A stretch of 64,000 nt of DNA from Sphingomonadales bacterium (GTDB lineage Bacteria > Pseudomonadota > Alphaproteobacteria > Sphingomonadales > Sphingomonadaceae), in contig JAGWMZ010000008.1 of NCBI GenBank assembly GCA_028871475.1, positions 62,001-126,000 on the forward strand. Reading direction: 5' to 3'. Shown in pieces: positions 16,981 through 19,890 of this stretch. The notes beneath the pieces are model-generated. The model made no database searches, was not told the origin of the DNA, and saw nothing but the letters and a program-made list of their open reading frames with translations. Numbering within the stretch: the stretch's first letter is position 1; each line of letters opens with the position of its first letter. Position numbers and translations under genes: made by a program.

Positions 16981-17778
16981 ATGGCCAGCGCGCCGCAAAA
17001 TCCCGGTCTGCCGATTTTCTACCAGGATCTGGTGCCCCTCAACAGCCGCGACCATGGCAGCTGGCACAGCCGCAGCGTGGACAAGGCCAAGTGGCTGGTG
17101 GGCCAGCATGCCATTCCGCTGACGGTGGAAGAATTCCCGCAGGCTGCCCGCAATTTCCCGATCATCTTCTCCTCGGGCGAGGATTCGGTGCCGCTGGCGC
17201 TGATGGGCCTGAACGAAGGCGTGAACGTCTTTGTCGACGATGAGGGCACCTTCCTCGAAAACGTCTATGTGCCCGCCTATGCACGCCGCTATCCCTTCAT
17301 GCTGGCCCGCCTGACGCCCGAGGCGCAGGAGCTGAGCCTGTGCTTTGACCCGACCTCGGATCTGGTGGGTGAGTTCGACGATGGCGCCGCCCTGTTCGAC
17401 GGCGACCAGCCGAGCGAGACGACCAAGGGCATGCTGGGCTTTTGCGAGCAGTTCGAGCAGGCCGGCCTGCGTTCGACCGCTTTCGTCAAGGAACTGGAAA
17501 AACACGGCCTGCTGATCGACGGCGAAGTCGCCATCCAGCAGGAAGGCCCCGATGCCACCCCCGGCCAGCCGCCCTTCGTCTATCGCGGTTTCCGCATGGT
17601 CGACCAGGCCAAGCTGCAGGAAGTACGCGGCGATGTGCTGCGTGGCTGGAATCAGTCCGGCCTGCTGCCGCTGGTCTTTGCCCATCTCTTCAGCCTTGAC
17701 CTGATGCGCGAAATCTTCGGCCGTCAGGTGGCGCAGGGCAAGATGCCCCAGCCCGTGCCGGTACTGCCCACCGTCTGA
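16981..17778 (+). CDS. SapC family protein
   Basis: A 265-residue soluble protein resembling the SapC family (named from the Campylobacter S-layer locus). Recognisable parts are FYQDLVPLNSRDHGSW at the N-terminus, the PLALMGLNEGVNVFVD region and the YVPAYARRYPFML block. In alphaproteobacteria these proteins often occur without S-layer genes, and none is nearby here. The biochemical role is not known. GGAGA lies upstream of ATG 16981 and a strong terminator follows the stop. Confidence 0.85.
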   Translation: MASAPQNPGLPIFYQDLVPLNSRDHGSWHSRSVDKAKWLVGQHAIPLTVEEFPQAARNFPIIFSSGEDSVPLALMGLNEGVNVFVDDEGTFLENVYVPAYARRYPFMLARLTPEAQELSLCFDPTSDLVGEFDDGAALFDGDQPSETTKGMLGFCEQFEQAGLRSTAFVKELEKHGLLIDGEVAIQQEGPDATPGQPPFVYRGFRMVDQAKLQEVRGDVLRGWNQSGLLPLVFAHLFSLDLMREIFGRQVAQGKMPQPVPVLPTV

Positions 17779-17973: not shown

Positions 17974-18002
17974 TTGCATGGATCGCCCGGGGGGCATATG
18001 AT
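17974..18002 (+). promoter_or_regulatory. Sigma-70-type promoter of the candidate sRNA
   Basis: TTGCAT (17974-17979), an exact 17-bp spacer, then TATGAT (17997-18002). Transcription would start near 18009. It lies after the sapC-like terminator, so it can only serve the RNA downstream. Confidence 0.6.
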
Positions 18003-18008
18003 CGTCAT

Positions 18009-18111
18009 GTTCTGTCGTGCTTCCCTCATGGCATGGCGGAACTGGTGCACGCCGTGCACCTCCTCCCTGAACCTTGGCCACCTCGCGTCTTCGACGCGGG
18101 GTGGTTTTTTT
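18009..18111 (+). ncRNA. Candidate small RNA with CCUCCUCCC motif
   Basis: An orphan transcription unit of about 100 nt between two protein genes. It has its own promoter (17974-18002), a perfect hairpin GGTGCAC-gcc-GTGCACC (18044-18060), an exact CCTCCTCCC at 18059-18067 that overlaps the hairpin's 3' arm and would be complementary to Shine-Dalgarno sequences, and a strong intrinsic terminator (18078-18111). No credible reading frame fits. The CCUCCUCCC element is the hallmark of alphaproteobacterial cuckoo RNAs (CcsR of Rhodobacter), but those are usually linked to a DUF1127 gene, which is absent here. The structure is seen in sequence; function is inferred. Confidence 0.65.
18078..18111 (+). 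terminator. Intrinsic terminator of the candidate sRNA
   Basis: A 12-bp stem CCACCTCGCGTC / GACGCGGGGTGG (one T-G pair) with a TTC loop, directly followed by seven T. There is no T-run on the other strand, so it acts in plus orientation only and not for the converging amidohydrolase gene. Confidence 0.9.
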
Positions 18112-18131
18112 GTGAGGCAAGATATCAGCCG

Positions 18132-19136
18132 CTATTCGGCGGCTTCGGCCCAGTCCTGCGGGCGAATGATGGATTGCGGCACGCCTATCGACGCCACTTC
18201 GCTGGCCAGATCGCGCACCAGCGACGCGAGGATGCCCACCACTTCGGCAAAGCCCGCGCCCGGCGCCACCAGCCGCGAATCGAGATAGGCCGCGCGGTCG
18301 ATCTCCAGTTGCATGGCGTGGATGCCCCCGCGCGGGTTGGCATGGCGATCGAGCACATAGCCACCGGCATAGGGGCGGTTATGGGCGACCAGCCATCCCG
18401 AATCGCTCAGCTGCGAATAGGCCCGCGCCACCAGCATGCCGCCGCAACTTGCGCCGAACCGGTCCCCGATGACACAGGTGATGGGTGCCTGCCCCTCCTC
18501 GCGCGGCAAGGGGGGCATGGAGTGCAGATCGATCAGCAGCGCCGTGCCCCAGCGCGCGCGCAGCCGGGCCAGCTGGTCGGCAATGCAGGCGTGATAGGGG
18601 GCGTGAAGCAGATGCAGCCGCTGCGCCAGAACCTCTCCCGAAAGCGGCTGACGCCACAGCTCGCCCAGCCCCGGCACGCGGCGCGGCACCAGGCCCAGCC
18701 CGGCGCGCACCCGCTGGCTGGGGTGGCCATGGGGGCGTGCATGGCCGCCGGTCGACAGGATCGCCGCCATGGCACAGCCGCGTGTCGCGTCGGGAATCAT
18801 CGCCCAGTCGACATCATCGGGGGCCCGGTTGAGGTCAAGCATGGCGCGCGGCGCGCGGGCCACCACGAGCCCTGCCCCGGTCGCTGCTGCAACCTCGCCG
18901 GCGACCTCGTCGATCAGCCGGTCCTCCAGCCGCAGCGCCGCGCGTTCGCCCTCGCGCAGTCCCGCCATCAGCGCCGGATCATACGCCCGCCCGCCATGGG
19001 GCACGCTGACCAGAACCGGCACGCGCGAGGGATGATGAATGCGCGTCACAAAGGGTTCGCCGATGCAGCCCGCCAGAGCCGCCATGGGCCCGGCAGCAGC
19101 GTGCGAATCGCCAGCTTGCGGGGGTTTTTCGTCCAT
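18132..19136 (-). CDS. N-formylglutamate amidohydrolase family protein
   Basis: Zinc-dependent deformylase-fold protein of 334 residues (HutG/FGase family), which releases formate from N-formylglutamate at the end of one histidine-degradation route. Seen: VLVSVPHGGRAYDP, DLNRAPDDVDW, LLIDLHSMPP and the RPYAGGYVLDRH block, the usual metal and substrate positions. No hut gene is nearby, so the physiological substrate may be different. A second, shorter paralogue lies at 46340-47080. Start ATG 19136 (MDEKPPQAG) is chosen over a 26-residue upstream extension. The gene is divergent from cpdR. Confidence 0.85.
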   Translation of the reverse strand: MDEKPPQAGDSHAAAGPMAALAGCIGEPFVTRIHHPSRVPVLVSVPHGGRAYDPALMAGLREGERAALRLEDRLIDEVAGEVAAATGAGLVVARAPRAMLDLNRAPDDVDWAMIPDATRGCAMAAILSTGGHARPHGHPSQRVRAGLGLVPRRVPGLGELWRQPLSGEVLAQRLHLLHAPYHACIADQLARLRARWGTALLIDLHSMPPLPREEGQAPITCVIGDRFGASCGGMLVARAYSQLSDSGWLVAHNRPYAGGYVLDRHANPRGGIHAMQLEIDRAAYLDSRLVAPGAGFAEVVGILASLVRDLASEVASIGVPQSIIRPQDWAEAAE

Positions 19137-19306
19137 GCCGCAAGTGTGGCACGCGTTTGACTCGAATGTCAAAACCGCGCCCGGCGCGGTGAAGCCCCCC
19201 GCGCTTCGTTTCAAATCCGGACAGGGCCGAATCTGGCAAGGAATCTTTACCTCAAAGCGCGTATAAGGATGCGAACAACACGCTGAACAAAGGCGCCAGA
19301 AACACC

Positions 19307-19681
19307 ATGATCCGCATCCTGCTTGCCGAAGATGAACCCGCCATGCGCACCTATCTGGCCCGCGCGCTGGAAAATGCCGGGTTTGAAGTGGTGGCCGTGG
19401 ACCGCGGAACCGCCGCCATCCCCTATCTGGAGCGTGAACGCTTCGACCTGCTGCTCTCCGACATCGTGATGCCGGAAATGGACGGGATCGAGCTGGCCCA
19501 GCGCTGCGCCCAGATCAGCCCGCCCACCAAGGTGATGTTCATCACCGGCTTTGCCGCCGTCACGCTCAAGGCCAGCCGCGAGGCGCCCCAGGCGCGCGTG
19601 CTGTCCAAGCCGTTTCACCTGCGCGATCTGGTGATGGAGGTGCAGCGCATCTTCGGCATGCCCTCGCAGGTGAGCATCTGA
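19307..19681 (+). CDS. cpdR: Single-domain response regulator, CpdR-like
   Basis: A 124-residue stand-alone receiver. Acidic pocket E8, D9, phospho-acceptor D52 (LLSDIVMPEMDG), T80 and K101 (LSKPF) are all present. Length and sequence fit CpdR, the ClpXP adaptor that, unphosphorylated, directs degradation of CtrA-pathway proteins and is phosphorylated through the CckA-ChpT relay. A CckA homologue lies at 32665-35118 in this window. Identity as CpdR is inferred from length, motif and the alphaproteobacterial context. A TATAAG hexamer sits at 19262-19267. A 16-bp tandem duplication covers the stop codon. Confidence 0.85.
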   Translation: MIRILLAEDEPAMRTYLARALENAGFEVVAVDRGTAAIPYLERERFDLLLSDIVMPEMDGIELAQRCAQISPPTKVMFITGFAAVTLKASREAPQARVLSKPFHLRDLVMEVQRIFGMPSQVSI

Positions 19682-19815: not shown

Positions 19816-19890
19816 GGGCGTATAGCTCAGTGGTAGAGCACTGTGTTGACATCGCAGGGGTCGCAAGTTCAATCCTTGCTACGCCCACCA
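19816..19890 (+). tRNA. tRNA-Val (anticodon GAC)
   Basis: A complete cloverleaf can be drawn by eye: acceptor stem GGGCGTA/TACGCCC, D-arm GCTC-AGTGGTA-GAGC, anticodon arm CTGTG-TTGACAT-CGCAG with GAC, T-arm GCAAG-TTCAATC-CTTGC, and encoded ACCA at 19887-19890. A strong terminator follows at once. Confidence 0.98.

Follow-up and report, generated by a model that had tools for sequence, protein, structure and literature searches.

Results

The window, i.e., the whole 64,000-nucleotide stretch of Sphingomonadales DNA that was analyzed, contains a SapC-family gene (16981-17778, +; PF07277, 209 bits) and, convergent to it, an N-formylglutamate amidohydrolase (FGase) gene (18132-19214, -, start codon approximate; PF05013, 197 bits), followed by a gene for a single-domain response regulator (19307-19681, +; PF00072). 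A tRNA gene lies further on at 19816-19887 (+; Rfam, 68.6 bits). The interval between the SapC and FGase genes had been proposed to hold a free-standing non-coding transcription unit, and this placement is borne out by the gene order SapC (+), element (+), FGase (-), response regulator (+), with each neighbor found in 39 of 40 syntenic loci. We infer that the host genus is Novosphingobium, since the closest named relatives of its HisI protein are N. rosa and other Novosphingobium.

The predicted sRNA transcript is ~100 nt long (18008-18111, +), its start being placed from the -10 element, and a covariance model described below, R1, matches it at 18005-18113 with 102.4 bits. All of its features lie on the + strand. 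The putative -35 element, TTGCAT (17974-17979), has a TTG that is near-invariant in 30 same-genus loci, and the putative -10 element, TATGAT (17997-18002), follows after a 17-nt spacer. This is the promoter named in the original prediction: its letters are present and a promoter-like pattern, TTGnnn-N15-19-(T/C)AnnnY, occurs upstream of 35 of 41 orthologues, but a consensus promoter scan of the locus returned no sigma-70 site at the scan threshold, below which TTGCAT/TATGAT fell. The transcript would open with a 5' hairpin (18009-18042; 13 bp in the window) that the original prediction missed, although every feature it named is present; the loop of this hairpin, UCCCUCAU (18022-18029), is the first C-rich segment. 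Next come the perfect 7-bp second hairpin, GGUGCAC-GCC-GUGCACC (18044-18060), the 9-mer CCTCCTCCC (18059-18067), which overlaps the 3' arm of that hairpin as had been described, and the conserved core CUCCCUGAACCUUGGCC (18063-18079), a single-stranded linker into the terminator stem and the second putative pairing segment. The unit ends in an intrinsic terminator (18076-18111), also foreseen, with a stem at 18076-18104 (14 pairs in the terminator prediction, 13 in the fold of the whole stretch) and seven T at 18105-18111. An Rfam scan of 17974-18111 returned no family at its cut-off.

By blastn, the element was matched in its own genome and in all but one of 36 same-genus relatives, while 24 genomes from other families gave no match. 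R1, which was built from 30 same-genus loci, matched 190 of the 195 genomes of the genus (one match per genome, with two exceptions) and all 149 of good quality (completeness of 90% or more, contamination of 5% or less). A covariance search across Sphingomonadales, suggested along with the original prediction, gave matches in 286 of the 396 genomes sampled from the order. Other families account for 35 of the 286; there the matches were weak, and those examined were suhB-like RNAs. With other families set aside, about 250 of the genomes sampled within the host's own family were matched.

Stem pairing, a second check put forward with the original prediction, was examined at two depths. The stretch 17974-18111 folds at -68.9 kcal/mol (z -5.3), a value that none of 200 shuffles reached. 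Among the 30 same-genus sequences, 12 of 31 pairs had changed on both sides; the covariation score was reached by 0 of 500 shuffles and the number of pair types by 39 of 500. The second alignment comprised 41 sequences (11 same-genus and 30 other-genus loci, from 30 genera of the family) and, since these were aligned to R1, it leans towards the R1 structure: 96.6% of cells were paired and 25 of 31 pairs had changed on both sides, which none of 500 shuffles reached, while slid control alignments of the same 41 sequences gave 12-16 such pairs. All three hairpins contain pairs with compensatory change. In the 41 sequences, every one of the 12 modeled pairs of the 5' hairpin had changed on both sides. 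The second hairpin is near-constant within the genus, and across genera 7/7 of its pairs had changed on both sides (97.8% of cells paired); the terminator has 12 modeled pairs, 6 of them changed on both sides (99.6% of cells paired). The predicted mean unpaired probability was 0.99 for loop 1, CCCTCA (n = 32), and 0.78 for the linker CTCCCTGAACC (n = 43).

Conservation lifts the unit above chance, and the 9-mer alone does not: genome-wide, it occurred at 36 sites compared with 53 for its reversed control, and is thus no commoner than the reversed form. It was kept in close relatives (27 of 30 same-genus loci), but just eight of the 30 loci from other genera have it, whereas CTCCCTGAACC was present in all 41 loci, including 30/30 of other genera. 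Therefore, the 9-mer is a local outcome of the second hairpin meeting the core and not the defining element. The constant part, CUCCCUGAACC, was likewise found in 41/41 loci, the full core, CUCCCUGAACCUUGGCC, in 11/11 same-genus and 28/30 other-genus loci, and a longer form, CTCCCTGAACCTTGGCC, in 39/41.

That the interval encodes a small translated ORF, or is the leader of an mRNA, is very hard to credit, for although an ATG is present in the loop region (CTCATGG), the unit has its own terminator, the downstream gene is convergent, and the distance from ATG to linker, taken modulo 3, is spread over 15, 5 and 6 sequences, so that the frame is not kept and a coding gene was rejected. Nor do we give much more weight to the kinship suggested in the original prediction, that the unit is a cuckoo/CcsR-type RNA defined by CCUCCUCCC. 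The exact 9-mer at 18059-18067 speaks for such a kinship, but CCUCCUCCC occurs as a single copy, lies in the linker, and is poorly kept in other genera as given above, so the identity failed on motif number, position, and conservation alike; moreover, the Rfam CcsR1 model (RF02791) scored 11 bits against a gathering score of 65.3. Cuckoo RNAs have a DUF1127 host gene upstream, and none was found among the five neighboring proteins scanned, as the original prediction had itself remarked. Of the sphingomonad branch of anti-Shine-Dalgarno regulators that it envisaged, what stands is a stand-alone structured RNA gene with an anti-Shine-Dalgarno sequence, and what falls is the link to cuckoo RNAs.

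A different family is indicated by the best, sub-threshold Rfam match of the window RNA, which was suhB (RF00519; 33.5 bits against a gathering cut-off of 41). Twenty of the 30 orthologous loci were scanned: suhB scored 29.1-39.3 bits in seven, and the other 13 gave no suhB match at E up to 0.1. Low suhB scores are unspecific, as 13 of 14 control genomes match at E up to 1 and 2 of 14 at E up to 0.01. In a class-wide search, 81 of 142 genomes were matched by suhB, 65 of them above the cut-off. A separate suhB search and the R1 search both saw 15 genomes of other families of the order, and the best R1 match overlapped a listed suhB match in 14 of them; in the fifteenth (G047), it was the second-best R1 match that did so. 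The FGase gene lay within the 1.5-kb flank of 14 of the 23 R1 loci of other families, and the family 10-mer TTTCCTCCCT was present in 21 of the 23. CCTCCCT is common to the window and all 14 FGase-linked copies of other families, CCTCCCTGAAC to the window and only four of the 14.

According to a 2025 Caulobacter study, most species carry one alphaR8 RNA adjoining the FGase gene, and the family is described there by a terminator, a weak hairpin, and a single-stranded UUUCCUCCCU downstream of the hairpin (PMC12559287). The window RNA has the FGase-adjacent gene and the Rho-independent terminator; it has neither the 10-mer UUUCCUCCCU, which was found in 0 of 41 family loci, nor a score at the RF00519 cut-off. 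Of that region, TCCTCCCT remains in 11/11 same-genus and 19/30 other-genus loci. By position and architecture the element would thus count as the FGase-linked alphaR8 RNA, but by the 10-mer and the Rfam score it falls short of strict membership. Since the 10-mer is absent, the score lies below the cut-off, and low suhB scores are unspecific, we take it for a descendant of that RNA (MmgR, SisA) that has diverged, and not for a standard member.

Elsewhere in this genome, GCCTTTCAGGCATCCTCTCC, the canonical suhB core, recurs in nine further copies, five of which score above the Rfam cut-off. The cores of these copies (L074-L081 and L083) are almost identical; two copies lie ~430 bases apart (C44), and three (C37, C55, and C23) have similar flanks, as if recently duplicated or mobile. 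Standing copies of canonical type in the same genome would suit an independent sphingomonad anti-Shine-Dalgarno sRNA that came to lie beside the FGase gene by chance and merely resembles alphaR8, as would the score below the Rfam cut-off, the lost 10-mer, the extra 5' hairpin, and the sharing of CCTCCCTGAAC with only four of the 14 FGase-linked copies. Nevertheless, the same neighbors and overlapping model matches recur across families, and CCTCCCT is found in all 14 copies, so we regard an independent origin as unlikely.

With descent from alphaR8 as the preferred reading, the own genome was searched with the 16-nt complement of the core, allowing up to three mismatches, which gave 40 sites (one being the sRNA gene itself) compared with 16 for the reversed control. 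Twenty-nine of the 39 non-self sites were inspected by script, and no convincing ribosome-binding-site target was found among them. The best non-self site, with one mismatch, lies in the interval between hisI and comF, gene names that reflect our reading of the ORFs, on the strand opposite hisI. This stretch contains two TTGAGGGA sequences and ends in a terminator. The region of the candidate partner in the own genome (G000:C5, ~81865-82185, -; L221) is non-coding, with G-rich repeats and a terminator. Rfam returned a single row for the hisI-comF stretch, at chance level (E 0.61), and no match at cut-off for 20 related hisI-linked loci. As DNA the interval is poorly conserved, being matched by blastn in three of 61 genomes (the own, G030, and G024); among the matches listed, a similar arrangement around HisI was seen in many genera.

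To obtain frequencies free of selection for the complement, HisI was looked for in 75 genomes, of which 74 matched; the hisI intervals of 60 were compared together with the own, and 13 were left out (G030 and twelve genomes of other families). The frequencies quoted here do not draw on another set of 47 (the own locus and 46 named ones, of 81 looked at), which is biased by having been chosen by match to the core. A partner-type terminator stood beside hisI in 35 of the 61 genomes. GTTCAGG was present in 26 of the 35 partner regions, compared with 0.46 expected from composition and 0 for the reversed word, and absent from nine; it was found in 0 of the 26 hisI intervals without a partner terminator (600 bases examined). 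TGAGGG was present in 31 of the 35 (mean 1.11, compared with 0.10 expected and 0.09 for the reversed word). In a number of loci (G339, G066, G193, and G243; L272, L276, and L277), the terminator is kept and the linker complement is lost or altered; G339, G066, G193, and G243 keep TGAGGG and an unchanged sRNA core. A recurrent block, TTGTTGCA(C/G)GATAACCACAG ... AAAATCCA, lies between hisI and the partner (e.g., L254, L258, L264, and L292) and is possibly a shared promoter or regulator site.

Whole-length duplexes between sRNA and partner were only modestly better than shuffles (median z -1.8), and since this is a poor statistic, it was replaced by duplexes of the linker only. For the 32 partner-bearing genomes with a known sRNA, the common linker, used for every genome, formed duplexes with a median of -26.3 kcal/mol compared with -19.7 for the reversed linker; it beat the reversed linker in 30 of 32 partners and, in 23 of 32, ranked with the best 1% of shuffles. 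Three partner-bearing genomes gave no R1 match; two of them, G154 and G062, had a weak complement and the third, G173, a good one. The linkers of two suhB paralogues of the own genome had no affinity for the own partner beyond that of shuffles, and a 16S-like anti-Shine-Dalgarno sequence had little (25 of 200 shuffles were as good); the partner therefore looks specific. The sRNA loop CCCTCA was found in 31 of 32 partner-bearing and in 0 of 17 partner-less genomes (two of the latter from other families). In a tree of 44 genomes, this loop and the partner mark a single clade, so both may have arisen in one joint event. In the predicted fold, the partner sites are mostly paired (0.33-0.37 unpaired), and the fold of its body is only slightly more stable than that of shuffles (median z -1.2).

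One lineage bears on the pairing more directly. The sRNA core of G210 is CCTGAACCTCGACC instead of the CCTGAACCTTGGCC found in 39 of 41 loci, and the partner in this genome has GGTCG-T-GGTTCAGG in place of the GCCA-n-GGTTCAGG typical of other partners. Within this four-base block (UGGC/GCCA to CGAC/GTCG), both changed sRNA positions are matched in the partner and the other two are unchanged. The gain in energy is small (-20.8 for its own linker compared with -20.4 for the common linker, the latter binding another site), and the common linker is preferred by each of the 31 remaining partners. In G331, a single change in the sRNA is left without compensation in its partner. G071, G294, G176, G190, and G139, with a deviant sRNA core, are uninformative on compensation because no partner was found at hisI in them.

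It is possible, and should be taken seriously, that the hisI-linked RNA has nothing to do with the sRNA, its G-rich sites serving another RNA or a protein, e.g., as a Csr-type sink, and the complementarity being coincidental. The own-genome site came from the complementarity search itself, most of the site bases are predicted to be paired, the linker complement is missing from nine of 35 partner regions, and the distribution is confined to a single clade. Against it stand the complements of both sRNA segments, for which controls were far lower, and the two compensated positions in G210. A Csr sink in particular was rejected, since CsrA (PF02599) was found in 0 of 61 genomes. We consider it doubtful on the whole that the two RNAs are unrelated, and the most likely reading is that the partner may sequester the sRNA as a dedicated sponge, by analogy with the system discussed below.

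Discussion

Taken together, we think it probable that the window encodes (18008-18111, +) a ~100-nt sRNA descended from the alphaR8 RNAs (SuhB/MmgR/SisA) that would repress mRNAs by pairing with their Shine-Dalgarno regions and may be sequestered by a hisI-linked RNA. This reading rests on the conservation of the locus and its gene order, on the pairing of the stems, on complementarity, and on two compensatory changes within a single lineage. Such an RNA would presumably be transcribed, make use of a chaperone, and find its mRNA targets by way of two unpaired C-rich segments, one being the UCCCUCAU loop of the 5' hairpin and the other the linker CUCCCUGAACCUUGGCC that precedes the terminator, both of which are predicted to pair with Shine-Dalgarno regions and so to bring about repression. 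Anti-Shine-Dalgarno pairing is the natural reading of two unpaired C-rich segments in a terminator-ended RNA, although here it is a prediction. Both SisA of Caulobacter (PMC12559287) and NfeR1 of Sinorhizobium (PMC10746234) are reported to pair with mRNAs where translation starts. In the clade formed by Novosphingobium and its Erythrobacter-like relatives, the partner would be transcribed, if at all, away from hisI, with the terminator at its end; it mostly carries a GCCA-n-GGUUCAGGG-like sequence, the linker complement, together with UGAGGG, the loop complement, and could by these two sites sequester the sRNA, as CrfA does alphaR8 RNAs in Caulobacter.

If this holds, Novosphingobium and its Erythrobacter-like relatives would possess a private two-RNA circuit, in which the ancestral FGase-linked alphaR8 sRNA acquired a longer core and a second loop rich in C, while an RNA beside hisI that Sphingomonas-like genera lack turned into its dedicated two-site sponge, sparing the SuhB paralogues; we regard the case for this broader picture as evenly balanced. 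As to novelty, the sRNA counts as no more than a divergent branch that the Rfam cut-off misses; for the partner, novelty rests on literature searches and Rfam. Since the sRNA lies below the cut-off, Rfam-based annotation would miss an RNA matched in about 250 sampled genomes of the family. The distribution of alphaR8 RNAs was reportedly surveyed by Lagares and co-workers in 2016. Among the matches listed, our literature search returned no description of the sphingomonad RNA or of the hisI-linked partner; the alphaR8 distribution study (ref 42 of PMC12559287) and the cuckoo family paper lay outside its scope. Next to the SuhB copies, the window RNA would be the regulator that is passed on vertically. 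Should the partner indeed act as a sponge, Caulobacter would not be alone in controlling alphaR8 RNAs in this way, and the predicted pair, with its natural compensatory change, would offer a direct test of how an sRNA and its sponge evolve.

Among known systems, the alphaR8/suhB RNAs (MmgR of Sinorhizobium meliloti and SisA-D of Caulobacter) are the closest, sharing with the window RNA the adjacency to the FGase gene and the succession of a hairpin, a C-rich single strand, and a terminator. Pairing that depends on Hfq is a further mark of that family. The window RNA differs from them in that UUUCCUCCCU is replaced and UCCUCCCU is kept, in an additional hairpin at the 5' end whose loop is also C-rich, and in a 17-nt near-invariant core, and it remains under the Rfam cut-off. 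SuhB of Sphingopyxis granuli TFA is reported as a 61-nt RNA that represses thnR with Hfq (PMC6563040). It is likewise a sphingomonad sRNA, bears the suhB name, and acts on a 5' UTR (PMC6563040); compared by length alone, it would fit the nine-copy type and not the ~100-nt window RNA. With NfeR1/ar14 and the cuckoo RNAs, the window RNA has the anti-Shine-Dalgarno motif CCUCCUCCC in common, but those RNAs are described as having three or four hairpins with the motif in each loop, whereas the window RNA has one copy between hairpins (PMC10746234, PMC3927594). A sponge of the CrfA type is marked by its induction on carbon starvation and by a fall in the level of the sRNA. CrfA of Caulobacter is reported as an RNA in its own right, with a stem loop rich in G and A that can pair with the alphaR8 core (PMC12559287), and the candidate hisI-linked partner, which is likened to it by description and not by homology or position, would also be a separate RNA complementary to that core. 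It differs from CrfA in having two kinds of site and in showing no fit to the two paralogue linkers tested.
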